Part shown: piece by piece, positions 10,526 through 37,109 of the stretch
Position numbering within the stretch: the stretch's first letter is position 1
Layout: each line of letters opens with the position of its first letter
NCBI RefSeq assembly: GCF_011193355.1
Contig: NZ_CP049780.1
Span: 6,664,634 to 6,728,633 of the forward strand
From: Streptomyces sp. JB150
GTDB lineage: Bacteria; Actinomycetota; Actinomycetes; Streptomycetales; Streptomycetaceae
Direction of reading: 5' to 3'
Length of the DNA: 64,000 bases
Made by a program: the position numbers and the translations under genes
Notes under the pieces: generated by a model
What the model was told of the DNA's origin: nothing
The model's input: only the letters and a program-made list of their open reading frames with translations
The model's database searches: none

Positions 10526-10532
10526 TGGGCGG

Positions 10533-16335: not shown

Positions 16336-16851
16336 TCATGCGTGCTTCAGCTCCAGCGCGTCGAGGACGGCTCGCGCGACCTCGGCGGGGGTGCGGCCGT
16401 CCGTGGCGACCATCGCGCGGGCGACCTCGGTGTAGAGGGGCCGGCGGGCCTCCGCCAGCGCCCGCCACCGCTCCTGCGGGTCGACCGCGAGCAGGGGCCG
16501 GGTGGTGTCGGGGCCGATGCGCCGGGCCGCTTCCCCGGCCTCCATCGTCAGGTACACCACCCGCTGCCCGGCGAGCAGCGCGCGTGTGTCCGGGTCGAGG
16601 ACCGCGCCGCCGCCGAGCGCCAGGACGCCGTCGTGCCCGGCGAGCGCCCGGCGCACGGCCCGCTTCTCCAGGGCGCGGAAGTGGGGTTCGCCCTCGGTGG
16701 CGAAGATGTCGGCGATGGCGCGTCCCTGCTCGGCGACGATGTCGTCGTCGGTGTCCCGGTAGCCCACCCCGAGCCGCTCGGCGAGAAGCCGCCCGACGGT
16801 GGACTTGCCCACGCCCATCGGACCGACGAGGACGACCAGCGGCCCCGTCAT
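16336..16851 (-). CDS. aroK: Shikimate kinase
   Basis: 171 residues; phosphorylates shikimate O-3 with ATP in the cytoplasm. Walker A is [20 protein letters not shown] near residue 8. [18 protein letters not shown] carries the shikimate-binding Asp, and [16 protein letters not shown] the Gly-rich segment. [23 protein letters not shown] is the lid with catalytic Arg. The start overlaps the end of aroC by four bases (ATGA). The aroA-aroC-aroK order without aroB or aroQ differs from the usual primary arrangement and fits a set dedicated to the cluster (inference). Confidence 0.95.
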
Positions 16852-18032
16852 CGGACCGGGAGATGGTCGAGGTAGGAGGTGACGTTGCGGCGGGTCTCGG
16901 AGACGCTGTCACCGCCGAACTTCTCCGCCACCGCGTCCGCCAGCACCAGCGCGACCATCGCCTCGGCGACGATCCCCGCGGCCGGCACGGCGCAGACGTC
17001 GGAGCGCTGGTGGTGGGCGGCGGCGGCCTCCCCGGTGACCACGTCCACCGTCTTCAGCGCGCGCGGGACGGTCGCGATCGGCTTCATCGCCGCGCGCACC
17101 CGCAGCAGCTCACCCGTGGTCAGGCCGCCCTCGGTGCCACCGGCCCGCCCGGAGACGCGCCGGATGCCCTCCGGGGTGCCGACGATCTCGTCGTGCGCCT
17201 TGGAGCCGGGCACCCGCGCCAGCTCGAAACCGTCACCGACCTCGACGCCCTTGATCGCCTGAATGCCCATCAGGGCGGCGGCCAGGCGCGCGTCCAGACG
17301 CCGGTCCCAGTGCACGTGCGAGCCGAGGCCCACCGGCACGCCGTACGCCAGCACCTCCACCACACCGCCGAGGGTGTCGCCGTCCTTGTGGGCCTGGTCG
17401 ACCTCCGCCACCATCGCCTTCGACGCGTCCGCGTCCAGGCACCGCACCGGGTCCGCGTCCAGCCGCTCCACGTCCGCGGGCGTCGGGTACACCCCGTACG
17501 GCGCCTTGGCGGAGGCCAGTTCCACCACGTGCGAGACGATCTCGATCCCGGTCGTCTCCTTCAGGTACGACCGCGCCACCGCGCCCAGCGCCACCCGCGC
17601 CGCGGTCTCCCGCGCCGAGGCACGCTCCAGGATCGGCCGCGCTTCCTCGAAGCCGTACTTCTGCATGCCCGCCAGATCCGCGTGACCGGGCCGCGGCCGG
17701 GTCAGCGGCGCGTTGCGCGCCAGCCCCGCCAGCACCTCCGGGTCGACCGGATCGGCCGCCATGACCTGCTCCCACTTCGGCCACTCGGTGTTCCCGACCA
17801 TGATCGCCACCGGGGAACCCAGCGTCAGGCCGTGCCGGACACCACCGAGGAAGGTGACCTCGTCCCGCTCGAACTTCATCCGCGCACCGCGCCCATGGCC
17901 GAGCCGCCGCCGCGCCAGGTGATCCGCCACCATCTCCGTGGTGACCGGCACACCGGCCGGCAGGCCCTCAAGGACCGCCACCAGCGCCGGGCCGTGGGAC
18001 TCTCCTGCGGTCAGCCACCGCAACCTGCTCAA
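16848..18032 (-). CDS. aroC: Chorismate synthase
   Basis: 394 residues, the normal size; converts EPSP to chorismate using reduced FMN. The start [20 protein letters not shown] contains the first signature [24 protein letters not shown] is the second. [19 protein letters not shown] and [16 protein letters not shown] are the conserved FMN and substrate segments. ATGA overlaps link it to aroA upstream and aroK downstream, a translationally coupled trio. Confidence 0.97.
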
Positions 18033-19330
18033 CGGTGCTCCTCACTGCTCGCGGTGATCTCGGGAAACAGCCGCCGGAACTCGGCGTGGAACCCGGGGAA
18101 GGTCTTGGCCACACAGCCCGGGTCGTCCAGCTCCAGCGGGACGCCGGAGCCGAGGGCGAGGACCGAGAAGGACATGGCGATCCGGTGGTCCCGGCGGCAG
18201 GCGATCCGGGCCGGGGCCGGGCGGCCGGGGTGGACGGTGATCCGGTCGGCCCCCTCCTCGACCCGGATGCCGCAGGCGCGCAGATTGGCCGCCATGGCCT
18301 CGATCCGGTCCGACTCCTTCAGCCGGGCGTGGCCGATGCCGCGGATGGTCACGGGGGCGTCGGCGAGGGGCGCGATCGCCGCCAGCGTCATGAAGGTGTC
18401 CGAGATCTCGCCCATGTCGACGTCGAAACCGCCGCGCAGCGGCCCGCCGCCGCTCACGGTGGTGGCGCCGGCCCCGACACTCACCCGCGCCCCCGTCTTC
18501 GCCAGCACGTCCACGAAGCGCAGATCGCCCTGGAGGCTGCCGGTGCCGAGACCCGGCACGGTGACGGCGCGCCCGGTGACCGCGGCGGCCGCGAAGAAGT
18601 ACGACGCCGTGGACGCGTCCGGCTCGATGGCCAGGTCCGTGGGGCGGTAGCGGCCGGGCAGGACGCGGATGCGGTCCGCCGAAGTCTCGACCTGCGCACC
18701 GTAACGGCGCATCAGCGCCAGGGTCATGTCGACGTACGGGCGGCTGACCAGCGAGCGGGCGTCGGCCTCCAGGCCCTGCCGCATCAGCGGCGCCGCCATC
18801 AGCAGTCCGGACAGGTACTGGCTGCTCATGCCGGAATCGACGACGATGCGACCGCCGTCCAGCCCGGCCGCGGTCACCTCGAACGGCAGGGCGTCCGGCG
18901 CGGCCCGGCCCTCCTCGGCCGCCCGTACGGTGGCGCCGAGCTCGCCGAGGGCGTCCAGCAGGGGCCGCAGCGGCCGGGCGCGCAGCTGCGCGGAGCCGTC
19001 GAAGCGGAACGTGCCGTCGCCGGTCGCGGCGAAGGGCGGCAGGAAGCGGGCCGCCGTACCGGCGTCGGCGCACCAGACGCGCGCCGCCGCCTGCCCGGCC
19101 GGGCCCCGGCCGGTGCCCGTGACGTCCCAGTAGGCGTCCTCCGGACCGGCGTCCACGGTGAGGCCGAGGTCGGTGAGCGCGGTGCGGAAGGCCAGGGTGT
19201 CGTCGCTGACCAGGGGCGCCCACAGGCGGCTGGTGCCGGGCGCCGCCGCGGCGAGCAGCAGCGCGCGGTTCGTCAGGCTCTTGGATCCGGGAATGCGGGC
19301 GGTGCGGGGGAGCGGGGCGTCCGGGGGCAT
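18029..19330 (-). CDS. aroA: EPSP synthase (3-phosphoshikimate 1-carboxyvinyltransferase)
   Basis: 433 residues. It joins shikimate-3-phosphate with phosphoenolpyruvate. [15 protein letters not shown] near residue 14 is the substrate-binding signature. [20 protein letters not shown] (about 89-108) takes the place of the usual L-G-N-A-G-T motif; it resembles actinobacterial Aro[21 protein letters not shown] near 323 is the second signature. [15 protein letters not shown] follows near the C-terminus. It lies 172 bases after phzE, behind a strong hairpin. Confidence 0.94.
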
Positions 19331-19498: not shown

Positions 19499-19502
19499 TG
19501 GT

Positions 19503-21413
19503 TCACAGCCGGGCGCCCAGCACCTCGCTCATCAGGGTGCCGACGATGCGCACGCCGTCCTGGGTGAGCACCGACTCGGCGTGGAACTGCATCGAGGCGA
19601 AGTGCGGGCCGCGCAGGGCGTGCACCTCACCGGTCCCCGGGTCGCGGCTCACCTCCACCACGCCGACGCCCGGGCAGTCGGCCTTGTCCTCGGCGCTGCG
19701 CGCGGCGAACGTGTTGTAGAAGCCGACCCGTTCACGGGAGCCGAACAGGTCGATCTCGTGCTGCACGCCCTGGTTGGGCACCTCCCGCCGCACCAGGGGG
19801 AGGCCGAGCCGCATGCTCAGCACCTGGTGGCTGAGGCACACGGCGAGGAACGGCCGCCGCTCGGCGAGCAGGGTGTCGATCGCCGAGCGCAGATGGGCGA
19901 TCTTGGGGTGGCCGGTGTCGCGCGGGTCGCCGGGCCCCGGGCCCATGACGACGAGGTCGTGCCCGTCGAAGGAGTACGGCTCGTCGAAGCGGCGGACCGT
20001 CACGTCGAGGCCCAGCGAGCGGAGCTGGTGGTCGATCATCGAGGTGAAGGTGTCCTCGGCGTCCACCACCAGCACCCGGCTGACCGGCAGATCCGGTGCG
20101 GTGCGGGTCCGGTCGGCGTCCCCGGCCAGCCAGAAGCCGGCGAGCGAGGTGTTGCGCCGCTCCAGCGCGGCCCGGACGTCCGGGTGGTCGCCGAAGCGCA
20201 CGGCGGCGGAGGGCGCCCGGTCCGCCGGGGCGTCGGTCTGGAGCGCGGCGAGCAGTCCGGCCGCCTTCGCCCGGGTCTCGGCCACCTCGGACTCCGGCCG
20301 GGAGTGGCGGACGAGGGTGGCGCCGACGCCGATCCGCACCCGGCCCGTGGCGTCGATGTCGGCGGTGCGGATGAGGATGGACGAGTCCAGGGCATGGCCG
20401 CCCCGCGCGTCCCGGCCGATGAGGGCGACGACGCCGCTGTAGTAGCCGCGGCCCTCCGGCTCGTAGCGGCTGATGACCCGGCAGGCGCTCTCCAGCGGGC
20501 TGCCGGTGACCGTCGGGGCGAACATCGACTCGCGCAGGATCTCGCGCGGATCGCGGGTGCTGCGGCCCTCGATGAAGTACTCGGTGTGCGCGAGCCGGGC
20601 CATCTCCTTGAGGTACGGCCCCACGACCCGGCCGCCCGAGTCGCAGATCCGGGCCATCATCTTCAGCTCCTCGTCGACGACCATGTACAGCTCGTCGGCT
20701 TCCTTGCGGTCGGCGAGGAAGTCCAGCACCTCGGGCAGGGCGGGGCCCGTGGACGGATAGCGGTAGGTGCCGCTGATCGGGTTCATCACGGCGGTGCCGT
20801 CCGAGAGGCTGACGTGCCGTTCGGGGGTCGCCCCGACGAAGGTCCGGTCGCCGGTGTGGACGACGAACGTCCAGTAGGCGCCGGACTCGCCGCGCAGCAG
20901 CCGGCGGAAGAACGACAGCGCGCTGTGCGGGGTGTAGCCGGTGATGTCGGCGACGAAGGAGCGCTTGACGACGAAGTTGGCGCCCTCGCCGGTGCCGATC
21001 TCGTCGGCGATGACCCGGCGGACCGTTTCGGCGTAGGTGTCGTCGTCCACGTCGAAGTGGCCGCCGGTCAGCTCGATCGGCGTGTCCGGGAGCCGGCGCA
21101 GCACCTCGTCGAGGGGGAGCGGGGCCTGGTCGGTGACGGTCATCGCGATCAGCGGTTCGCCGTCGTCGGGGGCGGCGAAGCCGCGTTCGGCGATCTGCCG
21201 GTAGGGGATGAGGGTCAGCAGCTCGTGCCGGGGGCCGGCGGCGGGCCGCGGGTGCTCGGGGAGCGGCAGGTCGGCCAGGGTCCGCGGGGTGGAGATGTCG
21301 CCGAGCAGGACGTCCACGGTGCCGCGGCCGGCGGTCTCCGGGCGGTACAGCAGGGCGAAGGCGGGCGGGTGCGGGGCGAGCACCCGGGCGAGGAGGTCGG
21401 CGGGCGCGGTCAT
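19503..21413 (-). CDS. phzE: 2-amino-2-desoxyisochorismate (ADIC) synthase, PhzE type
   Basis: 636 residues; a fused anthranilate-synthase-like protein that makes ADIC from chorismate and glutamine without pyruvate loss. The N-terminal chorismate-binding half has [28 protein letters not shown] and [14 protein letters not shown], and [20 protein letters not shown]. The C-terminal class I glutamine amidotransferase begins [18 protein letters not shown]. It has the nucleophile Cys in [12 protein letters not shown] near residue 526 and the His/Glu in MQFHAES near 609. [20 protein letters not shown] is typical of PhzE rather than TrpE/G or PabAB. ATG at 21413 overlaps the phzD stop. Confidence 0.93.
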
Positions 21414-22069
21414 GCGGCCGCTCCCGCCGTCGTGCGGGTGCCGAGCTGGGTGAGGACCGTGCCGGTGGTGGTGACGACGGCGCAGCGCTGGGCGGCGTAG
21501 TCGACGGCCAGCCGGTGGTACTCGGCGGAGAAGTCCCCGACCGCGTCGGCGACGAGGAACGGACGGATGTCGTGGGTGAAGGCCTCGACGGCGGTCATCA
21601 GCACCCCGACGTGCGCGTACACGCCGCACACGATGAGCTGGTCGCGGCCCAGTTCGCGCATCCAGTCCAGCAGTCCGGAGCGGAAGAAGGCGCTGTAGCG
21701 CCACTTGGTGAAGACGCGGTCGTCCGGGCCCGGCGCCAGCGGCTCGACCACCTCGCGGTCCGCGGGGTCGACGCGCATGCCGGGACCCCAGAAGTCCTTG
21801 AGCAGGCCGCGCTGTTCCTCGGTCATGCCGCCGGGCTGCGCGGTGTACGCGACCGGCACGCCCGCCGCGACGGCGCGTTCGCGCAGCAGCGCGGCGTTGC
21901 TCACCAGCGGGTCGCGCAGGGACGCGGGGAACGGGCGCAGGAAGTAGCGCTGCATGTCGTGGACGAGCAGCACCGCACGGTCCGGGTCGGCGGACCACTG
22001 GGCGGTGTTGCGGGGCAGGTCGTCCGCCGACGGCAGCGGATACGGCTCGATGGGGGGTATGCCCGCCAT
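21410..22069 (-). CDS. phzD: Isochorismatase-family DHHA-forming hydrolase, PhzD type
   Basis: 219 residues; hydrolyses the vinyl ether of ADIC to give 2,3-dihydro-3-hydroxyanthranilate and pyruvate. [13 protein letters not shown] matches PhzD openings. Asp38 ([10 protein letters not shown]) and Lys122 (TKWRYSAF) fall exactly at the positions known for phenazine PhzD. The usual isochorismatase Cys is absent (CGVYAHVGV), as expected for this branch. [20 protein letters not shown] is strongly conserved. ATG at 22069 has GGAGAGGAAAG; the open frame upstream is ignored. It overlaps phzE by four bases. Confidence 0.94.
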
Positions 22070-22321: not shown

Positions 22322-23524
22322 CTACGCCGCGGCCGGCTGGGTGCCGCGGCCGGTCAGCCACCAGGCCGAGACCACGGACAGGGCCTGGGCCGGGTTGAGC
22401 CGCGGGTCGCAGAAGCTCGTGTAGCGCTCGCCGACGAGACCGACCTCGGAGGCGTCGCGGACGCACTCGGTGACGTCGTCGGGGGTGGTCTCCAGGTGGA
22501 GTCCGCCCGCGACACCGCCCGCCGCGGCGACCGCGTGCTGGAACTCGTCCACCTCGCGGGTGACCGTCTCGACGTAACGGGACTTGAGGCCGTCGGGTGT
22601 GCTGACCGTGTTGCCGTGCATGGGGTCGGTCAGCCAGATCACCGGGTGTCCGGCGGCGCGTACGGCGGCCACCAGCGAGGGCAGTCGCTCGGCGACCGTC
22701 CCCGCGCCCATCCGGGCGATGAGGGTGAGCCTGCCGGGCTCGCGACGGGGGTCGAGAAGCTCGCACAGGGCCAGCAGTTCGTCCACCGTCATACCGGGGC
22801 CGACCTTGCACGCCACCGGGTTGACGACCTCGGCGAGCAGGGCGACGTGGGCGCCGTCGAGCTGCCGGGTCCGCTCGCCGATCCAGGGCCAGTGCGTGGA
22901 GGTGAGCAGCAGCCGCCCGTCCTCCTGCCGGCGCAGCATCGGCACCTCGTAGTCCAGCAGCAGCGCCTCGTGGCTGGTCCACACGGGAGCGCCGATGCGG
23001 GCCGTGCCGGGGGCGCCGAGCCAGCCGAGGTACCCCATGGCGTCGCGGGCCGCCTCGTAGCCGGACAGCAGCCGCTGCGGGTCGGGGCGGCGCGCCTCGG
23101 GGTCGGGCTCCGGACTGTTGACCATGTGGCCGCGGTAGACCGGCAGTTCCCGGTCGCCGACCCGCTCGGTCGGACGCGACCGGGGCTTGCCGAACTGGCC
23201 GGCCAGCCGGCCGACGCGGACCACCGGCAGGCAGGTGTCCATCTCCAGTGACCCGGCGAGCAGGTTCAGCAGGCCCGCCTTGCGCGCGACATAGCCGGGG
23301 GTGCACTCGGCGGTGTCCTCGGCGCAGTCGCCCGCCTGCACCACGTGGGCCTCACCCGCGGCCACCCTGGCCAGCATGGAGTGCAGGGTGCGCACGTCCT
23401 CGGCGCCGACGAGCGGGGGCCGCGCGGCGAGTTCCTTGCGCACCCGCAGCAACTGCTCCTCGTCCTCCCACGGTGGCTGCTGCAACGCCTGTTCATATCG
23501 AATATCGAGCAGAGCGTTGTCCAC
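22322..23524 (-). CDS. phzC: Class II 3-deoxy-D-arabino-heptulosonate-7-phosphate synthase, PhzC type
   Basis: 400 residues from GTG at 23524, which has GGAG seven bases upstream; a TTG start 12 bases earlier is less likely. It condenses PEP and erythrose-4-phosphate, feeding the shikimate pathway. Class II features: [35 protein letters not shown] with the metal-binding Cys, [30 protein letters not shown] and [26 protein letters not shown] and [15 protein letters not shown] complete the site. It is first in the phzC-phzD-phzE unit, and upstream repeats look like an activator site. Confidence 0.93.
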
Positions 23525-23682
23525 TGGTTTCTCCAATCGCGATGAGGCGTAGGCGACACGGGACGCAAGAGAGTGAAGAAGAAAGCCGGGGGAAGGGGTC
23601 CGGGAGAGCGGACCGAAAGCCGGAATTCCCCGGGCGTCACCGATCGTCCGACGGAATCCGCGGCGTCACCAACAACGTGGGC

Positions 23683-23858: not shown

Positions 23859-25064
23859 TCACCGAGCGTTGCGGGCGAGGGCGACGACCGCGTGCGCGGC
23901 GGAGGCCAGGGTGACATGGCGGTGCCAGCCGCCGAAGGATCGCCCGGAGTAGTCCCGGATGCCCACCCGGTCGGCGATCTCCGCGAAGTCCCGGTCGACG
24001 CGGTCGGCCAGCTTGCTCAGCCGCACCAGGGTGGCGGGCGCCGTGGTGCTGAGGTTGGTCAGCCACAGCTTGGCGGGCCAGTGCCCGTTCTCGTCGCCGA
24101 CGCCGAGGAGCATCACCTCGCCCGGCCCGGAGTCCGGTCGCGGCTGGTTCGGCAGCCCGACGCGTACCGTGGCGGCCCAGTGGGTCCGGGGCGCGGTGCC
24201 CGGAGCGTGGCCCCCGGCCACCACGGGCCGGCGCAGACCCCTGGCCGTGATCATGATCTGTTCGGCGGTCAGCGGCTCCCGGCCGGCGCCGGGCACGGCT
24301 GGGTCCGCCACGGTGAGCGGCTGGTCCTCGCAGACGCTCACCAGCAGGGGCAGACCCGCGGCGTGCAGCCGCTCGAAGATGGGGACGGCGTGCACCTCGC
24401 ACGAGTCGAGCACCAGCGGCCGCACCGGCAGCCGCCAGCGCGTCACCGCGTCCTGGCAGGCCTGGACCACGCATTCGCTCATCGTCTCCGCGGGCACCCC
24501 GTCGGGGATGGCCACCTGGCTGCGGCGCAGTTCGTCCTGGAGCCAGGTCCGCGGCAGGTGGAGGCGCCAGTTGACCGGGGCGCTCATGTGGTCCGACGCG
24601 GCCCACACGCCGATCGCGCGCTGGGCGTTGAGGACCTGGCCGAGGGTGGGGAAGAAGTGCTTGTCCACGCCCACCGAGTGCCGTCCGGTCTTGGGGATGA
24701 TGACCGGCTGGACCACCCAGGCCCGCGGCGGGGCGACATTGATCCAGTGGCGGGCGAGCGCCTGGCGGACGGGCTTCCAGTCCCAGGTCGAGGACGAGAT
24801 GAAGTGGTGGAGGTTCTGTTCCGAGACCTGTTCGCCGAGCAGCGCCGCGATGTTGCGTATGGACTTCCGGCCCTGTGTCTCCAGCAGACCGCGGAGGTAC
24901 TGCATGGCCTTTCTGCATTGGTCGCTTCTGGAGAGCGAGGCGAAGAGGACCGAGGAGATCTCGGTGAGGACTGCGTCATGGGAGCCGGGTGGAAGGGGGG
25001 TGGGGGGTGTCCCTCGTTGTGCGGTCGTGGGGCGCAGGTCGAGGCTGAGCATGAAACTCCTCAA
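23859..25064 (-). CDS. IS701-like transposase-derived protein with degraded DDE triad (copy 1)
   Basis: 401 residues, intact. IS701-family layout: RKSIRNIAALLG, SEQNLHHFISSSTWDW near residues 81-96, RAWVVQPVIIPKTGRHSVG near 114-132, and SGRSFGGWHRHVTLASAAH at the C-terminus. The first catalytic Asp position, normally an Asp after WVV/WVI, is Gln119. The Glu of the family's EGRSxxGWHxH is Ser373. Strand cleavage is therefore unlikely. No terminal inverted repeats or target duplication were found. It looks like a domesticated protein, perhaps DNA-binding. A TTGACA at 25181-25176 (minus strand) may be its -35 box. Confidence 0.82.
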   Translation of the reverse strand: MRSFMLSLDLRPTTAQRGTPPTPLPPGSHDAVLTEISSVLFASLSRSDQCRKAMQYLRGLLETQGRKSIRNIAALLGEQVSEQNLHHFISSSTWDWKPVRQALARHWINVAPPRAWVVQPVIIPKTGRHSVGVDKHFFPTLGQVLNAQRAIGVWAASDHMSAPVNWRLHLPRTWLQDELRRSQVAIPDGVPAETMSECVVQACQDAVTRWRLPVRPLVLDSCEVHAVPIFERLHAAGLPLLVSVCEDQPLTVADPAVPGAGREPLTAEQIMITARGLRRPVVAGGHAPGTAPRTHWAATVRVGLPNQPRPDSGPGEVMLLGVGDENGHWPAKLWLTNLSTTAPATLVRLSKLADRVDRDFAEIADRVGIRDYSGRSFGGWHRHVTLASAAHAVVALARNAR

Positions 25065-25177: not shown

Positions 25178-26389
25178 TCAAGTTACCGGATGGTAGTCCC
25201 GTTGGCCGGGTGACATCCTTCCGGAATCCGGCACGGCGGTCCCGCCGCCCTGGCGCGCGGCGGGCCGCTCCGCGTCCTCGCGCGCCCAGGCGGCCACCAG
25301 ATGGGCGACGGAGGCCAGGGTGATGTGCCGGTGCCAGCCGGGGAACGACCGCCCCGCGAAGTCCCGCAGACCGACGTCGTCGGAGACCTCGGAGAAGACC
25401 CGGGCGACCACGCCGGGCAGCCGGGTGAGCCGTAACGCCGGCACCAGACGGGAGGCGTCCAGGTTGGTCAGCCACAGCCTGCGGTCGACGCGCCGGCCGG
25501 GACGCCACTCCACCAGCAGGGTCATCGCGTCCCGCGGGCAGCGCGACATCAGCACGGGCACCGCCATGGCCGTCGTGCAGCCGTCGCCGGGGTTCGCGCG
25601 CTGCCGCAACTGCGGCAGAGATTCGGCCAGTTCCCCCGCGCTGCGCAGCAGATTGCCGTAACTGGGCAGCTCCGACCGGTCGATGCGGGCCGGTGCCGTC
25701 GCACTCGTGCGCACCACGAACGGCAGGCCGGTGGACAGCAGGAAGCGCGCGACCGACACGCCGTCCAGCTCCGCGACGTCCACCACCACCGGCAGCCGGG
25801 TCATCCCCGCGATGTCCAGCAGCCCGGTCACGGCCCGCCGTACGCACTCCTCGACCGTGCCCAGCGCGGCGTCCTCGGGGACACCGGCCCGCCGCCGGAG
25901 CGGGTCGGCCAGCCAGCGGTCGGACAGGCGCAGCTGCCAGTCGACGGGCACCGCCGTGCGCTCCGACGCCAGCCAGGTCCCCACGGCCTGCTGGCCGTTG
26001 ACGGTGCCCAGCGCGGTGGACTGCGGGTCGGTGCCGACGGAGTACGGACCGGCCTTGGGGATCAGCGTGGTGTCGATCACCCACGCCTGCGGGGCCAGGG
26101 TCCGCTGGGTCTGCCGGGCCAGGGCGTGCCGGATGGGCAGCCAGTCCCAGGGCGAGGTGGTGATGAAGTGGTGCACGCTCTGCTGCGCCGCCGCACCGTC
26201 GAACCGCGCCGCGAGGTTCCGCAGCGTCTTGCGTCCCGGCACGGAGAGCAGCCCGCGCACGTACTGCTCGGCCTTCAGCCGCTGCCCGTTGCGATGCAGT
26301 GACCCGAACAGCTGCCGGCAGGCCTCCGCGTCCAGAGCCGCCGCCGGGCACGCGCCCGCCGCGTCGCCGTGCTCGCCGAATCTCTCCAA
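25178..26389 (-). CDS. IS701-like transposase-derived protein with degraded DDE triad (copy 2)
   Basis: 403 residues, intact, paralogous to the next gene downstream but clearly diverged. RKTLRNLAARFDGAAAQQ, VHHFITTSPWDWLPI and AWVIDTTLIPKAGPYSVGT (Asp106 present) are IS701-like. The C-terminal motif reads FAGRSFPGWHRHITLASVAH, so the catalytic Glu is Ala345. An unrelated polar tail of about 40 residues follows. A 26-bp palindrome resembling a butyrolactone-receptor operator sits 20 bases upstream, which suggests regulated expression rather than parasitic spread. Confidence 0.82.
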   Translation of the reverse strand: MERFGEHGDAAGACPAAALDAEACRQLFGSLHRNGQRLKAEQYVRGLLSVPGRKTLRNLAARFDGAAAQQSVHHFITTSPWDWLPIRHALARQTQRTLAPQAWVIDTTLIPKAGPYSVGTDPQSTALGTVNGQQAVGTWLASERTAVPVDWQLRLSDRWLADPLRRRAGVPEDAALGTVEECVRRAVTGLLDIAGMTRLPVVVDVAELDGVSVARFLLSTGLPFVVRTSATAPARIDRSELPSYGNLLRSAGELAESLPQLRQRANPGDGCTTAMAVPVLMSRCPRDAMTLLVEWRPGRRVDRRLWLTNLDASRLVPALRLTRLPGVVARVFSEVSDDVGLRDFAGRSFPGWHRHITLASVAHLVAAWAREDAERPAARQGGGTAVPDSGRMSPGQRDYHPVT

Positions 26390-27199: not shown

Positions 27200-27209
27200 A
27201 CCGAACGGT
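27200..27209. promoter_or_regulatory. Possible ARE core upstream of the first receptor gene
   Basis: ACCGAACGGT is a 10-bp palindrome about 59 bases before the GTG. ACCG-nn-CGGT is the inner core of many AREs, but the outer arms do not match well. Autoregulation is plausible only. Confidence 0.35.
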
Positions 27210-27363
27210 GATCCGGTACTTTAACACCGCACGAAGTGTACGGCTCGGAATACCGGCGTGGGGCCGGAACGGTCGCGGTCACACGACACGGCCCCGCGGG
27301 CCTGCCCCCGGGAGAGGGGACCGGTCCGCGGGGCGGGAGTGTCCGCACGCCGCTGCGTGGCCG

Positions 27364-28863
27364 TTACTGCGCGGCCGCGACCTTCTCGGCCTCCGCGGCC
27401 GGCTGCTCCTTCGGCACCCAGCGCAGGGCGAGCACGCCCAGGGCCAGGCAGAGCAGGCTCGCCACGCCGATCGCGACGTGCATACCGTTCAGGAAGGCGT
27501 CCTTGGCCTCCGCGATCGTGCCCGCGGTCAGGCCCGGCTTGTCCAGCGTCTCGTTCAGCGTGCCCGCCACGTCGGGGCCGGTCAGCCGGAACCAGAGGGC
27601 GGCGAGCGAGCCGAGCAGGGAGATGCCCAGCGCGTTGCCCAGCTCGTTGCTCATCTCGGCGAGCGAGGCCGCCGACCCGGCCCGCTCGGACGGCACCGCC
27701 GCGACGGCGGTGTCCGCGACCAGGCTGAAGGAGAAGCCGTAGCCCACGCCGGTGACGACGGAGGAGGCGATGAACGCCGCCACCCCGTGCTCGGTGGTCG
27801 TCAGCAGCAGAAGCAGCAGGCCGACGCCCATGAAGAAGTGCGAGGCGATCAGCGCCGACCGCATGCCGATCCGCTCGACCACGCCGCTGGCCCCGATGCA
27901 CGCGGCGGTCAGGACGGCCGCGCCGGGGAGGACCAGCAGGGCCGCCGTCAGCACGGTGTAGCCGAGGACCGACTGGAGGTACACGCCGGTGAGGTATCCG
28001 GCGGCCGCCCACGCGACCAGCGACAGCAGGCCGGTGAGGATGGCCACGGTGAACACGTGGTCCTTGAAGAGCCGCAGGTCGACGAGCGGGTACTCCAGCG
28101 TGAGCTGCCGGCGCACGAACCACGTCAGGATCGCCAGGCCGACGACACCGGTGACGGCCTGCGTCGACGAGAAGCCCTCCGCCGCGGCCGACTTGACCGC
28201 GTAGACGACCAGCAGGATGCCGACGGCCGACAGGACGACGCTGAGGGCGTCCACCCGGCCGGGGTTGGTGGTGCGCACCTCCTTCAGCAGCACCGGCGCG
28301 AAGGCGAGGAACAGCACCACGACGGGGATGTTGATGAGGAAGACGACACCCCAGTCGAACCGGCTCAGCAGCAGACCGCCGAGGACGGGACCGACGGCGA
28401 ACCCGGCGGCGAAGGTCGCCGCGAAGATGCCGATGGCCTGGGAGCGCTGCCTCGGGTTGTGGAAGAGGCTGCTGATGATCGCCAGGCCGGAGGGCAGCAG
28501 CGTCGCGCCGCCGAGACCCATCAGCGCGCGGCAGGCGATGAGCACTTCAGGGTTCGGGGAGAACGCCGCGCCGACCGAGCCGAGACCGAACACCAGCGCG
28601 CCGCTCAGCAGGAACTTGAGCCGGCCGTAGCGGTCGCCGAGGTTGCCGAAGGCGATGAGCAGGGACGAGACCACGAAGCCGTAGATGTCCAGGATCCACA
28701 GAGCCTGATCGGTACTCGGTGTGATCGCGGACGTGATGCTCGGCATCGCGAGGTACAGGACGGAGCCGTCCATCGCGACGAGTGCGACCGGGCCGAGCAC
28801 GATCAGGAGGCCGAGCCAGGCCCGCCGGTCGGCACGCTCCGCGACTAAGTCGAGGGAGGTCAC
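27364..28863 (-). CDS. MFS drug exporter, DHA2 family (EmrB/QacA type, 14 helices)
   Basis: About 499 residues from GTG at 28863 with GGAAAGG upstream; an ATG 48 bases earlier has no ribosome site. Fourteen membrane segments are predicted by eye. VLGPVALVAMDGSVLYLAMPSI is helix 1. NLGDRYGRLKFL is motif A and PVLGGLLLSRFDWGVVFLIN is the motif C region typical of antiporters. It is the probable export and self-resistance pump of the cluster. It diverges from a TetR gene, with five tandem operators between them. Confidence 0.9.
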   Translation of the reverse strand: MTSLDLVAERADRRAWLGLLIVLGPVALVAMDGSVLYLAMPSITSAITPSTDQALWILDIYGFVVSSLLIAFGNLGDRYGRLKFLLSGALVFGLGSVGAAFSPNPEVLIACRALMGLGGATLLPSGLAIISSLFHNPRQRSQAIGIFAATFAAGFAVGPVLGGLLLSRFDWGVVFLINIPVVVLFLAFAPVLLKEVRTTNPGRVDALSVVLSAVGILLVVYAVKSAAAEGFSSTQAVTGVVGLAILTWFVRRQLTLEYPLVDLRLFKDHVFTVAILTGLLSLVAWAAAGYLTGVYLQSVLGYTVLTAALLVLPGAAVLTAACIGASGVVERIGMRSALIASHFFMGVGLLLLLLTTTEHGVAAFIASSVVTGVGYGFSFSLVADTAVAAVPSERAGSAASLAEMSNELGNALGISLLGSLAALWFRLTGPDVAGTLNETLDKPGLTAGTIAEAKDAFLNGMHVAIGVASLLCLALGVLALRWVPKEQPAAEAEKVAAAQ

Positions 28864-28907
28864 GGGGGCAACCTTTCCAGGAGAAGGTGCGAAGAGGTTC
28901 GAACGCT

Positions 28908-29018
28908 GCATACGGCGTACGCGAATTGCCCGGCGTACGTCGTACGCGATCAGGATGCGTACATAGTACGCGAGAGGTGGCGTACATCGTACGCGAATTC
29001 TGTGCGTACGTCGTACGC
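28908..29018. promoter_or_regulatory. Five tandem palindromic operators between exporter and TetR gene
   Basis: The 15-bp palindrome GCGTAC-N3-GTACGC starts at 28908 (one mismatch), 28933, 28957, 28980 and 29004. Spacing is 23-25 bp, a little over two helical turns. The last copy covers the expected -35 zone of the TetR gene. The array is the likely binding platform of the divergent TetR protein. Confidence 0.88.
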
Positions 29019-29029
29019 AAGCTGCCGGT

Positions 29030-29035
29030 TATACT
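29030..29035 (+). promoter_or_regulatory. -10 box for a leaderless TetR transcript
   Basis: TATACT ends six bases before the ATG at 29041, so transcription should begin at the start codon. The -35 zone falls inside operator five. No ribosome site precedes the ATG. Confidence 0.6.
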
Positions 29036-29040
29036 ACCCC

Positions 29041-29694
29041 ATGGCCATCAAGACACAAGGCAGGCAAGTGAGTTCACCGAGCCTGTCGCGCGGCGCGATC
29101 GTGGCGGCCGCCATGCGCATCGCCGATGCCGAAGGGGTCGCCGCGCTCTCGATGCGACGCCTCGCGGCCGAGCTCGACTCGGGCGTCATGTCGCTGTACC
29201 GGCATGTCGCGAACAAGGACGCGCTGCTCACCGCGATCACCCAGGCGGCATGCGACGAACACCCCTACCCCGAACCCGCGCCGCCGGACTGGCGGGAGGC
29301 GATGCGGCTCGCGGCGCGACTGGACTGGGAGGTGTACTGCCGTCATCCCTGGGCGCTGGTCACCTCGAGCTCCGCCCGGCACTTCTCCGACACCACGTGC
29401 CTCGACTGGATGGTGGACGCGCTCGCCGGTCTCACCGACGACCCCGACCTGGCGCGGTCCTTCTCGATCGCCGTGTGGTCGTACGTCCAGGGCGTGTGCA
29501 TCCAGCACCTGTCGCAGCAACTGCTGCCCGGCGCGGGCAAGCCGGAGCAGTCCCCGCTGCGGGCCACGGAGGAGGACTTCGAGACGGGGCTGGAAACCCT
29601 GCTCGACGGGATGGAGCAGCGCGCGCTGCGGGCCGGGTCGAACCGGGCCGAGCCCGTCCTTGTGCGCACCTTCCCGGTCGTCGCGGGAGGCTGA
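29041..29694 (+). CDS. TetR-family regulator of the divergent exporter
   Basis: 217 residues. HTH: SRGAIVAAAMRIADAEGVAA, LSMRRLAAELDSGVMSLYRH, VANKDALLTAITQAA. The C-terminal ligand domain (DWREAMRLAARLDWEVYCRH and on) resembles the TetR class with actinobacterial drug-efflux targets. ATG at 29041 is preferred over the in-frame 29002 start, which lies in an operator. The gene is likely leaderless and autoregulated. Its ligand is probably the exported product or an intermediate (inference from the divergent pump). Confidence 0.88.
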   Translation: MAIKTQGRQVSSPSLSRGAIVAAAMRIADAEGVAALSMRRLAAELDSGVMSLYRHVANKDALLTAITQAACDEHPYPEPAPPDWREAMRLAARLDWEVYCRHPWALVTSSSARHFSDTTCLDWMVDALAGLTDDPDLARSFSIAVWSYVQGVCIQHLSQQLLPGAGKPEQSPLRATEEDFETGLETLLDGMEQRALRAGSNRAEPVLVRTFPVVAGG

Positions 29695-29760: not shown

Positions 29761-30573
29761 ATGACGACCACCCATGCGATGAACACCAGGCGCAACGAAC
29801 GACCGGCCACCGCCGCCGACCTGGCCCCGCTCGCCTTCGCCGGATACGCCCACTTCACCGCGATGCAGGTGCGCGCCGGCCGGGTGCGCGGCCTCGACCT
29901 GCACCTGCAACGGCTGCGGCACGGCTCGGCCGAACTGTTCGGCCGGGCCCTGCCCGACGAGCGGGTGCGGTCCTGGCTGCGCGCGGCCCTGGCCGACGCC
30001 CCGGCCGACCTCTCACTGACGGCCACCGTCTACTCACCGTCCGGCGAGTTCACCGTGGCCGCGCCCGGCGAGGAACCCGAACTCCTCGTCCGTACCGGAC
30101 CGCCGGCCACCGGCCCCCGGGGTCCGCTGGCACTGGCCGAGGTGGAGCACGAGCGGTTCCTGCCCCGGGTGAAACACGTGGGCGAGCCGGCCAAGACCTA
30201 CTTCCTGCGGCGGGCCGCCGGCCAGGGGTACGACGACGTCGCCTTCACCGACCGCCGGGGCCGGCTGAGCGAGGCCTCGATCTGGAACCTGGCCTTCTGG
30301 GACGGCTCCTGCGTGGTGTGGCCGGTGGCCGAGATGCTCGGCGGAGTCACCATGGGGATCGTCCGCCGGCAGCTGGAGCGCCTCGGGGTCCCCCAGCGCG
30401 ACCGGGAGATCAGGGCCGCGGACCTGCCCGGCCTGGCGGGCGCGGCCGTCATGAACTCCTGGACACCCGGCGTCGCGGTCCACCGCATCGGCACCGCGCA
30501 CCTGCCCGATGCCCCGGACTTCCTGGCCCTGCTGCACCGCGCCTACGAGGCCGAACCGCTCGTGGCCCTGTAG
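29761..30573 (+). CDS. Class IV aminotransferase / aminodeoxychorismate lyase-like protein
   Basis: 270 residues. Fold-type IV PLP enzyme: AGRVRGLDLHLQRLRHGSAE near residues 39-58, catalytic Lys in PRVKHVGEPAKTYFLRRAAG, Glu in RRGRLSEASIWNLAFWDG, and GGVTMGIVRRQLERLG for phosphate binding. AVMNSWTPGVAVHRIG replaces the T-N/S-S motif region. It could release pABA from aminodeoxychorismate or transaminate another substrate. In a chorismate-based cluster either is plausible. No ribosome site precedes ATG 29761; a second ATG at 29779 is possible. Confidence 0.85.
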   Translation: MTTTHAMNTRRNERPATAADLAPLAFAGYAHFTAMQVRAGRVRGLDLHLQRLRHGSAELFGRALPDERVRSWLRAALADAPADLSLTATVYSPSGEFTVAAPGEEPELLVRTGPPATGPRGPLALAEVEHERFLPRVKHVGEPAKTYFLRRAAGQGYDDVAFTDRRGRLSEASIWNLAFWDGSCVVWPVAEMLGGVTMGIVRRQLERLGVPQRDREIRAADLPGLAGAAVMNSWTPGVAVHRIGTAHLPDAPDFLALLHRAYEAEPLVAL

Positions 30574-31438: not shown

Positions 31439-31642
31439 GACGTTGCGCACTCCGGAAGAGGGAGGAAGAGGAGTGGTGGGCGAGGAGCGGTGACCCGCAC
31501 GCGGACGTGCCGGGCGGCGACGCCGGGCACCGGACACAGAGGACCCGCGGGCGCACGTCCCCGTGCACCGCTTCACTCTTACCACGTCACCAAGAAGAGA
31601 TGGACGGCACGTTACCGACCCTGGCGGAATATCGTACCTGTC

Positions 31643-32551
31643 ATGATCGCCATCCAGTTCGACCGCTTCGGCGGTCCGGAAGTGCTCGCCGCCGTCGATG
31701 TCCCCGCCCCGCGGCCGGGACCGGACGAAGTACTGGTCACCGTCGAGGCCGCCGGAGTGAACTACGCCGACACCCACCAGGTGGACGGCTCCTACCTCGC
31801 CGCCGACCAGTTGCCGTACATCCCCGGCAGCGAGGTCGTCGGCCGTACCGAGGACGGCAGACGCGTACTGGCCCGCGTCTCCCACGGCTACGCCGAACAG
31901 GCCGTGGCGAAGCGGTCCGCGCTCGTGGAGATCCCCGACGACCTGGACGCCGGGGCGGCCCTCGCCCTGCTGGTGCAGGGCCTGACCGCCTGGCACCTGC
32001 TGCGGACCGCGGCCCGGCTGCGCTCCGGGGAGACCGTGGTCGTGCACTCCGCGGCCGGCGGTGTCGGGAGCCTCGCCGTGCAGCTGGCAAGGGAGTTCGG
32101 GGCCGGACGGGTCTGGGCGCAGACCTCCTCGCCCGGGAAACGGCAGCTCGCCCTGGATCTCGGCGCCGACGCCGTCGTGGACCACCCGCTGCCCGAGCGG
32201 GCCGACGTGATCCTCGACGCGGTCGGCGGTGAGCTGTTCGACCGCGCGCTGGACTCCCTGGCCTCCGGCGGCCGCCTCGTCACCTACGGCAACTCGGCGC
32301 GCACCGGCTTCACCCCCGTCGACCCGGCTCGCCTCAGCCGGCTGAACGCCGCCGTCGTCGGCTTCTGGCTGCGCCCCACGCTGGCCCAGCCGGGTGCCTT
32401 CACCGAACCCCTGCGGGAACTGCTGGACCTGACCGCGCGCGGCCGGCTCAAGCCGGTGGTGCACCCGGCCTACCCGCTGACCGAGGCCCGCCGGGCCCAC
32501 GAGGATCTGCTGGCCCGGCGCACCACGGGCAAGGTGCTGCTGCGTCCCTGA
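31643..32551 (+). CDS. NADPH:quinone oxidoreductase-like MDR protein
   Basis: 302 residues from ATG at 31643; the long upstream frame covers another gene and is rejected. Zinc-free medium-chain dehydrogenase/reductase: IQFDRFGGPEVLAAVDVPAP, EVLVTVEAAGVNYADTHQVD, nucleotide loop VVVHSAAGGVGSLAVQL, closing RRTTGKVLLRP. It reduces quinones or enones with NADPH. In this cluster it might reduce a cyclohexadienyl or enal intermediate (inference). TATCGT seven bases before the ATG could give a leaderless transcript. Confidence 0.88.
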   Translation: MIAIQFDRFGGPEVLAAVDVPAPRPGPDEVLVTVEAAGVNYADTHQVDGSYLAADQLPYIPGSEVVGRTEDGRRVLARVSHGYAEQAVAKRSALVEIPDDLDAGAALALLVQGLTAWHLLRTAARLRSGETVVVHSAAGGVGSLAVQLAREFGAGRVWAQTSSPGKRQLALDLGADAVVDHPLPERADVILDAVGGELFDRALDSLASGGRLVTYGNSARTGFTPVDPARLSRLNAAVVGFWLRPTLAQPGAFTEPLRELLDLTARGRLKPVVHPAYPLTEARRAHEDLLARRTTGKVLLRP

Positions 32552-32740: not shown

Positions 32741-32932
32741 GGTGGATCACTCGGGGATCGCGTGCACCGTGCCTAGCATCGGGTGAGAGCTGGAAACGGC
32801 ACGGGCCGATCCGCACCGGCGGCCCGCGAGACCCGCGACGCCGCCCGCTCGGGCACCCGGACGTCGCGCGCCCCAGCCGTCACGCTTCCCCAGCCCTGAA
32901 GTCGGCCCACCATGCGACGCGGAGACCCAGAA

Positions 32933-35900
32933 ATGCGACTTGCCCAGGTGGTGGCATCCGTCATGGAGCGCCACGCGGACCGGCCCGCCATCGGCGAACG
33001 TGTGAAGGAGTACGCCCGGGACGCCGAGACGGGCCGGACCGTCATCCGGCTGCTGCCCCGTTACGAGACGACCAGCTACCGCGACCTGTGGGCGCGGGTC
33101 CGCGCCGTGGCGGGCGAGTGGCACCACCACCCGGAACACCCGCTGAGGGCCGGCGAGCGCGTCGCCATCCTCGGCTTCACCAGCCGCGACTACACGACGA
33201 TCGACCTCGCCTGCATCCACCTCGGGGCCGTGACCGTCCCGCTGCAGACCAGCGCCGCGCCGGCCCAGCTGAGGTCGATCCTCGCGGAGACCGAGCCGTT
33301 CGTCGTGGCCACCAGCCTGGAGCGGCTCGACGCCGCCGTCGACCTCATACGCGACAACGCGTCGGTGCGGCGGGTGGTGGTCTTCGACTACCACCCGGAG
33401 GCGGACGACCACCGCGAGAGCTACGCCGCGGCCCGCGCGCGCCTGGCCGAGACCCGCCCCGGCGTCGTCGTGGACTCCCTCACCGACCTCGTCGAGCGGG
33501 GCACCGCCCTGCCCGAGGCCCCGCTGTACGCGGCGCCCGACGGCGAGGACCCGCTGGCGATGCTCATCTACACCTCCGGCAGCACCGGCACCCCCAAGGG
33601 CGCCATGTACACCGAACGGCTGGCCGGCGCCATGTGGGGCGGCGCCTGGGCGAAGCTGTTCGACGAGAGCTACGCGGTCACCTTCCACTACATGCCGATG
33701 AGCCATGTCGCCGGGCACTCCTCGCTGAAGGCCACCATGGTGCGCGGCGGCACCAGCTACTTCACCGCGAGCAGTGATCTGTCGACGTTCTTCGAGGACA
33801 TCGCCCTCGCGCGCCCCACCGAGCTGTCCCTGGTGCCGCGGGTGTGCGAGATGCTCCACCAGCGGTTCCGCAGCGAGGTCGACCGGCGGGTCGCCGCCGG
33901 CGCCGACCGCGAGGCGGCCGAGGCCGAGGTGCGCACCGACATCCGCGAGAACGTCCTCGGCGGCCGGGTCACCTGGGCCAGCTGCAGCTCCGCCCCGCTG
34001 TCCGCCGAACTCACCGCGTTCACCGAGTCGTTGCTGGGCCTTGAGTTGCACAACGTCTACGGCTCCACGGAGGCCGCCGGCGTGTCCGTCGACGGCGTGC
34101 TGCTGCGCCCGCCGGTCACCGACTACAAGCTCGCAGACGTGCCCGAACTCGGCTACTTCCGCACCGACTCGCCGCACCCGCGCGGCGAGCTCCTGCTGAA
34201 GACCGACGCCATCATCCCCGGCTACTACAAGCAGCCCGAGCTGACCGCCGCACTCTTCGACGAGGACGGCTACTACAAGACCGGCGACATCGTCGCGGAG
34301 CTGGGCCCCGACCGGATCGCGATCGTGGACCGCCGCAAGAACGTCCTGAAGCTGTCGCAGGGCGAGTTCGTGGCCACCTCCCGGCTGGAGGCCGTCTTCG
34401 CGGCGAGCCCGCTGGTGCGGCAGATCTTCGTGTACGGCAACAGCGAGCGCTCCTACCTGCTCGCCGTGGTCGTCCCCACCCCCGACGCGCAGCGCGAGTT
34501 CGGCGCGGACGAGCGGGAGCTGAAGCGGCGGCTGAGCGTGTCGTTCCAGGACCTGGCCAAGGAGGCCGGGCTCAACTCGTACGAGATCCCCCGTGACGTC
34601 CTCATCGAGACGGAACCGTTCAGCCAGGCCAACGGCCTGCTCTCGGACCACCGCAAGCTGCTGTGGCCACGGCTGGTGGAGCGGTACGGCGAGCGGCTGG
34701 AACAGCTCTACGCCGAGACCGCCCGCCGCGAGGACGAGGAGCTGCGGGAGATCCGCCGCTCGGGCGCTAACCGGCCGGTGCTGGAGACGGTGCAGCGGGC
34801 CGCGCGGGCGCTGCTGGCCGGAACGGCCGCCGAGGTGAGCCCCGGCGCCCACTTCCGCGACCTGGGCGGCGACTCGCTGTCCGCGGTGTCCTTCGCCAAC
34901 CTGCTGCAGGAGACCTTCGGCGTCCGTGTGCCGGTCGACATGGTCATCAGCCCGGCCTACGACCTGCGGCACCTCGCCGAGCACATCGAGGCCAGGCGCG
35001 GGGAGTCCGCCGACCGGCCCACCTTCGCCTCCGTGCACGGCGCGGACTCCACCGAGGTGTACGCCAAGGACCTCACGCTCGACCGGTTCATCGACGCGCG
35101 CACCCTCACCGACGCGGCGGCGCTGCCCCGGCCGCAGGGGGCGCCGCGGACCGTGCTGCTGACCGGGGCGAGCGGCTATCTCGGCCGGTTCCTCGCCCTG
35201 CAGTGGCTGGAGGAACTACCGGCCGGCGGCCGGCTGATCGCGCTGGTGCGCGGCAAGGACGCCGAGGCGGCCCGGCGCCGCCTGGACGCCGCCTTCGACA
35301 GCGGCGACCCGGAGCTGGTCCGCACCTACGAGAAGCTCGCCGCGGACCGTCTGGAGGTGATCGCGGGCGACATGGCCGAGCCGCGGCTCGGGCTGGACCA
35401 GGCCACCTGGGACCGGCTGGCCGACGAGGTCGACCTGATCGTCCACGCGGGCGCCCTGGTCAACCACGTGCTGCCGTACCCGCACCTGTTCGACGCCAAC
35501 GTGGTCGGCACCGCCGAGCTGATCCAGCTGGCGCTGACCCGCCGGATGAAGCCGGTCACGTACATCTCCAGCGTCGCCGTCGCCACCGCCCGCCCGGGAC
35601 AGCCCGCGCTCGACGAGGACTCCGACGTCCGCGAGGCCATGCCGGCGCTGCCCGTCGACGGGGGCTACGCCGGCGGTTACGCCGCCAGCAAGTGGGCCGG
35701 TGAGGTGCTGCTGCGGGAGGCGCACGACCTGTGCGGGCTGCCGGTGACCACGTTCCGGTCCAACATGATCCTGGCGCACAGCCGGTACGGCGGACAGCTG
35801 AACGTCCCCGACATGTTCAGCCGGCTGCTGTTCAGCGTGCTCGCCACCGGCATCGCGCCGCGCAGCTTCTACCGCGCCGACGGCGCGAGGGCCCACTACG

Positions 35901-36355
35901 ACGGTCTGCCCGTCGACTTCACGGCCGCCGCCGTCGTCGCGCTCGGCGGCCGCGACGGGGCGACCGACGAGTACCGGACGTTCAGTCTCGTGAACCCCCA
36001 CGACGACGGTGTCTCCCTCGACACCTTCGTCGACTGGCTGACGGAGTCCGGGCACCGCATCGAACGGGTCGAGGACTACGCCGACTGGTACGTCCGGTTC
36101 GAGGCGGCGATGCGCGCCCTGCCCGAGGACCAGCGGCAATACGCCGCGCTGCCCATCCTGCACGGCTTCAAGGAGCCCGAGGAGCCGGTGCCCGGATCGG
36201 TCATCCCCTCCGAGCGGTTCCGCGCGGCGGTGCGGACCGGCGGGATCGGCGCCCACCAGGACATCCCCAGCCTCTCCCGCGATCTTGTCGCGAAGTACGC
36301 GGCGGACCTGAGGGCACTGGCGCGGCCTGTGGTAGGCACACGCCATGAACAGTGA
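32933..36355 (+). CDS. Carboxylic acid reductase (A-T-R, CAR family)
   Basis: 1140 residues from ATG at 32933, which has GGAG eight bases upstream; ATG 32912 is an alternative. It activates an acid with ATP, loads it on a phosphopantetheine arm and reduces it to the aldehyde with NADPH. Adenylation domain: [16 protein letters not shown] near residue 208, [19 protein letters not shown] near 448. Carrier: [13 protein letters not shown], Ser near 646. Reductase: [16 protein letters not shown] near 742 and the YxxxK pair in [11 protein letters not shown] near 916. It needs a phosphopantetheinyl transferase, not seen here. It overlaps the SDR by 11 bases. Confidence 0.94.
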
Positions 36356-37109
36356 TCTCCTCGCCGGGAAAGTCGTCCTGATCACCGGAGCGAGCAGTGG
36401 CATAGGCGCGGCCGCGGCACAAGTGTTCACCCAGGAGGGGGCGACGGTCGTGCTCGCCGCCCGCCGGGTGGACCGGCTGGCGCGGCTCACCGGGGAACTG
36501 CGGGCCAAGGGTGCCGAGGCCGCGTACGTGAGCTGCGACGTCACCGTCGTCGACGACGCGGCCCGGGCCGTCGAGTTCGCCGTCACCGAGTACGGGCGGC
36601 TGGACGGGGCGTTCAACAACGCCGGCATCGGCGGGGACCGCACTCCGCTGCACCTGATGACCGACGACGTCTACGACACCGTCATGGACGTCAACGTCCG
36701 CGGCGTGTGGAACTGCCTGCGCCATGAGATCGCGGCCATGCTGCGGCACGGCGGGGGCGCCGTCGTCAACAACTCCAGCGTGGCGGGGCTGGTCGCGATC
36801 CCCGCGGCCGCCCCCTACGTCGCCGCCAAGCACGCGGTGGTCGGCCTGACCAGGGCGGCGGCCGACGAGTACGCCCAGCAGGGCATCCGGGTGAACGCCA
36901 TCGCCCCCGGCACCACGCGCAGCGAGATCACCGAGGACTGGTTCCGGCGCAACCCGGGCCTGGAGCAGACGGTCAACGCGATGACCCCGCAGGGCCGTAC
37001 GGCCGATCCGGAGGAGATCGCCGCCGCCGCGGCGTGGCTGCTGAGCGACCGCTGCCCGTTCCTGACCGGAACGGTGCTGCCCGTCGACGGCGGCTTCGTC
37101 AACCAGTGA
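36345..37109 (+). CDS. Short-chain dehydrogenase/reductase, candidate DHHA dehydrogenase
   Basis: 254 residues, classical [19 protein letters not shown] binds NAD(P), FNNAGIGG is the NAG motif, NNSSVAGL holds the catalytic Ser and [11 protein letters not shown] the Tyr/Lys. The close PVDGGFVNQ is typical. Coupled to the CAR. Enzymes of this type aromatise DHHA to 3-hydroxyanthranilate in other pathways; that role fits the phzCDE genes but is inference. Reducing the CAR aldehyde product is the alternative. Confidence 0.88.

Follow-up and report, generated by a model that had tools for sequence, protein, structure and literature searches.

What becomes of 2,3-dihydro-3-hydroxyanthranilic acid (DHHA) in a bacterium that carries genes to make it close to a gene for a carboxylic acid reductase (CAR)? 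The question is raised by a 64 kb stretch (hereafter the window) of the genome of Streptomyces sp. JB150, a single contig of 7.32 Mb. Based on Pfam and NCBIfam profiles, a minus-strand block at 16336-23536 contains aroK, aroC, aroA, phzE, phzD and phzC, while a plus-strand block at 29761-37109 encodes a class IV pyridoxal phosphate (PLP) enzyme, a quinone oxidoreductase, the CAR and a short-chain dehydrogenase/reductase (SDR). Between the blocks lie two DDE_5 'transposase' genes and the genes for the regulator TetR1 and the major facilitator superfamily (MFS) exporter MFS2, all on the minus strand, and the gene for TetR2 on the plus strand. The profiles agree with the gene calls and coordinates of a preliminary description of the window, the CAR, SDR, class IV aminotransferase and quinone oxidoreductase included; the two DDE_5 genes, a TetR gene and the exporter gene go unmentioned there. 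We propose that the two blocks probably constitute one biosynthetic locus opening a reductive branch from DHHA, in which the CAR would reduce DHHA and the MFS protein would export the product. The diversion of DHHA to the CAR is a well-supported prediction; the CAR substrate, the product, its export and its tailoring we infer.

The route to DHHA is readily recognized. When the Phz proteins of P. aeruginosa PA7 were used as tblastn probes against the window (E 1e-3), PhzC, PhzD and PhzE matched at 62, 70 and 67% identity, respectively. Residues 1-206 of PhzD align with the P. aeruginosa-type enzyme (PDB: 1nf9) and include the Asp that is replaced by Ala in entry 1nf8. By visual inspection, PhzE retains the Cys and His motifs of its glutamine amidotransferase part, and the CAR retains its adenylation motifs, the carrier Ser and the YxxxK motif. 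As had been described, phzC, phzD and phzE are intact, and so are aroA, aroC, aroK and the gene for the full-length CAR. The CAR has the adenylation, carrier and thioester-reductase domains of a type I CAR and scores above the curated NCBIfam cut-off; in this full-length architecture and in its catalytic motifs it resembles the solved chains 5msc and 5msp, which we take to be from Nocardia and Segniliparus. Phenazine clusters (phzA/B-C-D-E-F-G) share PhzC, PhzD and PhzE for the conversion of chorismate to DHHA at the above 62-70% identity, but PA7 PhzB, PhzF and PhzG have no match in the window at the same threshold, and a CAR and an exporter are found instead. The reported lack of phzF, phzA/B and phzG in the window is thus upheld. 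Nor are phzA/B or phzF evident just outside it: PhzA/B (PF03284) has no match anywhere in the host genome, and the best PhzF-family protein (PF02567), which shares 30% identity with PA7 PhzF across 217 of the 278 residues of the latter, is encoded at 1.07 Mb, 5.6 Mb from the window (PhzG was searched in the window only).

The association of these DHHA genes with a CAR is recurrent. Of 560 confirmed PhzE relatives, taken from one genome per species, the best 80 were used. Their loci fall into 23 of the phenazine type, 40 in which an SDR of weak similarity adjoins phzD, 5 going with a CAR and 12 others (genomes and loci are given below by G and L numbers). Among the 5, the CAR lies inside the fetched stretch in Streptomyces sp. 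JJ66 (G202, of the same genus as the host), Pseudomonas sp. Irchel s3h17 and a Magnetospira metagenome-assembled genome (MAG); in S. verrucosisporus it is located ~11 kb from phzE on the same contig, and in Streptomyces sp. DH37 the CAR and phzDE are on separate contigs. Searches of 295 Streptomyces genomes with the exporter and the CAR added G185, G077 and G028. The CAR accompanies phzDE in 3 of 24 stretches fetched around MFS2, several of them short, and phzDE occurs in 4 of the 23 other Streptomyces genomes for which wide flanks of the CAR were covered, JJ66 being included in both counts (30 other Streptomyces have a CAR match; the count leaves out G030, G060, G105, G156, G233, G241 and G275, as well as a second CAR in each of G066 and G175). 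In the genus Pseudomonas a CAR is present in 2 of 149 genomes, in both beside phzDE. The alphaproteobacterial class of the Magnetospira MAG yields a CAR match in 3 of 289 genomes, with phz genes seen only in the MAG (the other two stretches are short, 6.3 and 4.8 kb). Twelve others among 396 genomes of Actinomycetota have a CAR of at most 59% identity outside the linked clade described below (a search for the CAR alone), 13 plasmid records carry a CAR of less than 60% identity each, and no PhzE relative was found on viral contigs.

Altogether ten genomes link the two functions; in nine of them the CAR shares a contig with phzDE, at a distance of ~12 kb at most and in rearranged gene order. PhzA/B occurs in one of the ten, on a different contig. 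Defining a DHHA-CAR locus as a CAR of this clade on a contig with phzD and phzE, we find it in the window and in eight other genomes. The preliminary description had called for a search for the same gene set elsewhere, and the pairing of CAR and phzDE was met in nine further genomes, one with the genes on separate contigs. Judging from these neighbourhoods, the pairing is not chance, and the view that the CAR forms a unit with the DHHA genes is supported by linkage in an alphaproteobacterial MAG as well as in Streptomyces and Pseudomonas, by a single CAR clade and by nearly private adenylation residues.

The gene content of the linked loci separates a core from accessory functions. All three proteobacteria have a TetR gene beside phzD-phzE-MFS-CAR, followed in both Pseudomonas loci, next after the CAR, by a type I 3-deoxy-D-arabino-heptulosonate 7-phosphate (DAHP) synthase that is not homologous to the class II PhzC of Streptomyces. 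A gene of the MFS2 lineage is present in 7 of 10 loci, with 63-84% identity in G185, G077, G202, G295, G441 and G296. Four of the 10 loci showed the class IV PLP enzyme, four the SDR and three the quinone oxidoreductase, some contigs ending early, and none of these enzymes was seen in the three minimal proteobacterial operons. We regard all three as accessory. In G028, a methyltransferase gene overlaps the end of the CAR gene. Because the proteobacterial operons are reduced and the accessory genes patchy, the minimal pathway seems to need only PhzE, PhzD, CAR and an exporter.

In a quick tree of 51 CAR rows, the linked CARs are located in one clade of 13 rows (support 100), which consists of the ten linked CARs, the CAR of G012 (beside a phzC) and the CAR of G044 (locus L172) with a duplicate row (L202, a partial duplicate of L172); the Pseudomonas CARs are the unlabelled rows L195 and L196, and G093, G120 and G156 were left out. 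When the ten linked CARs were set against 38 further ones, with domain borders drawn by us, 26 columns proved nearly fixed in the former and rare in the latter, 15 in the adenylation domain and 11 in the carrier and reductase domains. They include His269, Ser271 and Lys273, directly after the conserved SH motif, where a 13-residue stretch is common to all nine linked CARs aligned; this stretch probably corresponds to the substrate-reading positions of adenylation domains. The CAR of G012 retains 12 of the 15 adenylation and 9 of the 11 carrier and reductase columns. The L172 enzyme retains all 11 of the latter but only 6 of the 15 adenylation columns (Fisher p 0.0024, a guide only, since the columns share ancestry), with Ser271 and Lys273 lost and His269 kept, the pattern to be expected if the substrate had changed or the adenylation domain had been exchanged. 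The linked CARs differ from 5msc and 5msp in these nearly private residues and in a reductase Asp (motif RSDMILAH; residue 998 of 5msp according to the alignment), which presumably has a role in the reductase and which is Asn (7) or Ser (2) in the nine linked CARs aligned. The loss of this Asp was considered as a mark of the clade and rejected, several unlinked Streptomyces CARs also having Asn.

Two further observations concern the CAR family. At L172 (about 598-11693), the clade CAR has a class II DAHP synthase and an aminodeoxychorismate synthase of PabAB type in its vicinity, and the locus may encode a counterpart of the DHHA-CAR pathway of the 4-aminobenzoate type; a close CAR relative near such an enzyme is in effect an experiment by nature on how CARs choose their substrates. 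In G093, G120 and G156 (L189, L190 and L166), the match of the proteins to the window CAR is confined to its carrier and reductase half, from about residue 640, with 63-74% identity.

Does the CAR act on DHHA itself or on an aromatic derivative? Published chorismate/DHHA clusters use a DhbA-type enzyme to oxidize DHHA, as described in PMC5958127 and PMC5481532. The route to 3-hydroxyanthranilate of limazepine, caboxamycin, paulomycin and others employs the same enzymes to DHHA as the window locus, DAHP synthase included, but continues with a DhbA-type dehydrogenase, of which the window locus has none above cut-off, and a CAR is not mentioned in the available part of the account (PMC5958127). 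The preliminary description had the window SDR turn DHHA into 3-hydroxyanthranilate. This assignment is not supported: against TIGR04316, our criterion for DhbA, the SDR scores 126 bits where the cut-off is 300, it belongs to a different SDR subfamily, and it has the patchy distribution given above. Moreover, of 11 genomes searched, only the host and G012 have a DhbA above cut-off; the other nine, all three proteobacteria included, have none, with weaker SDR matches in each. Because of this scarcity of DhbA and because the window SDR is not of that type, the CAR is likely to act on DHHA itself, and direct reduction of DHHA appears more likely than a route via 2-amino-3-hydroxybenzaldehyde. Oxidation of DHHA to 3-hydroxyanthranilate, by the window SDR or a distant DhbA, and reduction of the latter by the CAR to that aldehyde is an unlikely course of events, yet one with arguments of its own: the usual CAR substrates are aryl acids, the host and G012 do have the enzyme, and the Streptomyces CAR-linked PhzEs fall among the PhzEs of loci with a DhbA-like SDR, at weakly supported forks. 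It has to contend with the nine genomes lacking a DhbA above cut-off and with a window SDR of another subfamily, which the stretches fetched from 6 of the 10 linked genomes did not show. In addition, a weakly window-like SDR lies within 400 bases of phzD in 40 of the best 80 of 560 PhzE loci (the one among them that was scanned, L008, is above the DhbA cut-off), and no such SDR lies beside phzD in the CAR loci, the G028 contig beginning at phzD. Less probable still is that reduced DHHA loses water or ammonia, aided by the PLP enzyme in the manner of an aminodeoxychorismate lyase, to yield 2-aminobenzaldehyde or 3-hydroxybenzaldehyde. The PLP enzyme does match aminodeoxychorismate lyase models, weakly, and adjoins the CAR or TetR2 in 4 of 10 loci, but it was unseen in the minimal operons, the chemistry is reasoned only, and to reach anthranilate by way of PhzD would be a wasteful detour, TrpE making that compound directly. 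That two unrelated loci, one with the DHHA genes and one with the CAR block, simply adjoin each other was raised by the two transposase-like genes that separate them in the window, and phzDE is near the CAR in only the 4 of 23 other Streptomyces genomes mentioned. This explanation was rejected on the recurrent linkage and we give it hardly any credence: phzDE lies within ~12 kb in 9 of the 12 genomes of the CAR clade, in three lineages, and the transposase-like genes themselves recur in the loci, without catalytic residues.

Several observations weigh against direct reduction of DHHA within one locus. Two of the 12 clade genomes, G012 and G044, are unlinked: the G012 CAR adjoins phzC, but the phzDE loci of that genome are at least 0.4 Mb away, and G044 has the PabAB-type synthase and DAHP synthase near its CAR instead of phzDE. 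Several of the compared genomes are drafts, and in any genome a gene not seen in the fetched stretch may still be elsewhere. The placement of His269, Ser271 and Lys273 in the pocket is tentative and follows general motif positions of adenylation domains, and His269 alone is no substrate mark since L172 keeps it. The sole host DhbA above cut-off, at 130186, is part of a second phzD-phzE locus outside the window locus, L199 (122500-142400), which probably makes 3-hydroxyanthranilate; a supply to the CAR by cross-talk in the host is possible, and such cross-talk between loci is reported for caboxamycin (PMC5481532). Furthermore, SDRs below cut-off, many of them in every genome, could oxidize DHHA, and the free DHHA aldehyde may be unstable.

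In the proposed pathway of direct DHHA reduction, a dedicated DAHP synthase together with 5-enolpyruvylshikimate 3-phosphate (EPSP) synthase, chorismate synthase and shikimate kinase would push carbon into chorismate, which PhzE and then PhzD would convert via 2-amino-2-deoxyisochorismate (ADIC) to DHHA. The CAR would adenylate DHHA, load it onto its own carrier domain and reduce it with NADPH to 6-amino-5-hydroxycyclohexa-1,3-diene-1-carbaldehyde. The aldehyde might be partly reduced further to the alcohol; the reductase Asp may bear on this step, but its replacement by Asn is shared with some unlinked CARs. A fungal CAR is reported to form alcohols as a side reaction (PMC10168641). Export would be provided by the DHA2-type MFS protein, and further tailoring of the product in the host strain would fall to the SDR, the quinone oxidoreductase and the class IV PLP enzyme. 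We tentatively suggest, with somewhat less than even confidence, that this is a third fate of DHHA beside phenazines and 3-hydroxyanthranilate: a CAR-made, non-aromatic amino-hydroxy-cyclohexadiene aldehyde or alcohol, exported, encoded by a portable four- to five-gene unit and possibly aimed at PLP enzymes, because the amine of the product sits on a ring ready to aromatize. Among known systems, GriC/GriD of grixazone biosynthesis likewise reduces an aminohydroxybenzoate-type acid to an aldehyde, but with another precursor route and another type of reductase. Oryzoxymycin, also derived from DHHA, keeps the dihydroaromatic amino-hydroxy ring and, unlike the product proposed here, the carboxyl group; we know of no CAR for it.

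How the locus was assembled was addressed with a PhzE tree of 88 rows (G185 PhzE left out; the class rule of the tree counts the host locus L199 among the others although it carries DhbA). Two groups of CAR-linked PhzEs, one from Streptomyces (6 rows, support 98) and one from proteobacteria (3 rows, support 99), stand on a weak backbone, and one origin for them is possible. A single transfer of the whole operon was considered and set aside: there is one CAR clade, but two PhzE groups and non-homologous DAHP synthases, and reassembly is as likely. Repeated assembly fits, since the CAR is joined to two PhzE groups and to DAHP synthases of two kinds. Alignment of the window DDE_5 proteins with two annotated IS701 transposases shows QP or DT in place of DD and Ser or Ala in place of the Glu, and a simple search of their short flanks found no terminal repeats. 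'Transposase' a is 55-75% identical between CAR loci. Similar IS701-derived genes are found near many other DHHA-type clusters; none of 37 aligned proteins has the DD, and at least 5 have the Glu. Those without DD near DHHA-type Streptomyces clusters include the window pair (23859-26389) and proteins of L007, L171, L191, L192, L112, L114 and L123, and in the CAR loci the Glu is lost as well. These proteins look like domesticated ones, perhaps regulators. Beside TetR1, AfsA-type (A-factor synthesis) genes are present in L007 (2316-3257) and L171 (11226-12167), which suggests butyrolactone-type signal control. In L113 (G017), the TetR2-MFS2 pair is kept (81-83% identity) and adjoins the same genes for a GntR protein and a transporter (72-88%). 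The genome gave no match to the CAR at 1e-150, and the 14.2 kb stretch contains no phz genes, as if only the exporter had been kept.

Table. Features of the locus and the evidence for each assignment (window coordinates).
Feature	Position	Strand	Evidence
aroK, shikimate kinase, precursor supply	16336..16851	-	PF01202 148 bits; G077 CAR locus holds 70% identical aroK
aroC, chorismate synthase, precursor supply	16848..18032	-	PF01264 388 bits; 87% identical copy in G077 locus
aroA, EPSP synthase, precursor supply	18029..19330	-	PF00275 and TIGR01356 above cut-off; near phzE also in L005, L007
phzE, ADIC synthase, chorismate-binding and glutamine amidotransferase domains	19503..21413	-	PF00425 and PF00117; PA7 PhzE 67% identity; start picked by eye
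phzD, isochorismatase, ADIC to DHHA	21410..22069	-	PA7 PhzD 70% identity; aligned with 1nf9
phzC, class II DAHP synthase	22322..23536	-	PF01474; PA7 PhzC 62% identity; under NCBIfam equivalog cut-off; start uncertain
DDE_5 'transposase' a, IS701-derived	23859..25064	-	PF13546; in 7/10 CAR loci; without DD and E of two reference transposases
DDE_5 'transposase' b, second IS701-derived protein	25178..26389	-	PF13546; adjoins a also in G028, G297, G298
TetR1, TetR-family regulator	26497..27348	-	PF00440; AfsA gene nearby in two relatives (L007, L171)
MFS2, DHA2-type MFS exporter, core gene	27364..28911	-	PF07690; LfrA/QepA-like, below cut-off
TetR2, TetR-family regulator divergent from exporter	29002..29694	+	PF00440; 70-87% in G077, G185
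Class IV PLP enzyme (PRK09266 subfamily), accessory	29761..30573	+	NF006734 356 bits, cut-off 202; in 4/10 CAR loci
Zinc-type quinone oxidoreductase, accessory	31640..32551	+	PF13602 and PF00107; 79-81% in G297, G298; start estimated
CAR, adenylation - carrier - reductase	32912..36355	+	NF041592 1749 bits, cut-off 1300; nearest solved chain 5msc
SDR oxidoreductase, accessory, not DhbA-type	36345..37109	+	PF13561; TIGR04316 126 bits, cut-off 300; 78-81% in G028, G297, G298
TetR3, TetR-family regulator, probable right edge	37253..37891	+	PF00440

Elsewhere in the window, a separate plus-strand set at 2991-10457, possibly another biosynthetic cluster, encodes an MFS protein, two class III aminotransferases, a thermostable-hemolysin-family protein, an AMP-binding enzyme and a TauD-type dioxygenase. 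A tRNA-Pro (ggg) is present twice, at 1741-1815 and 56608-56682, ~55 kb apart and one near each end of the window.

In PMC5958127, DHHA is described as a branch point to phenazines and to antibiotics derived from 3-hydroxyanthranilate. Judged by titles and the opening lines of abstracts, none of the open-access papers listed in our searches deals with DHHA or PhzD/PhzE paired with a CAR, and the recurrent pairing of phzDE with a CAR points to a small-molecule pathway that is as yet undescribed. To our knowledge, the natural substrates of CARs are seldom known. If our reading is correct, a reductive branch from DHHA would add a new class of products, testable with a handful of genes; it would show how a CAR gets recruited into secondary metabolism and would suggest a natural substrate for one CAR lineage.

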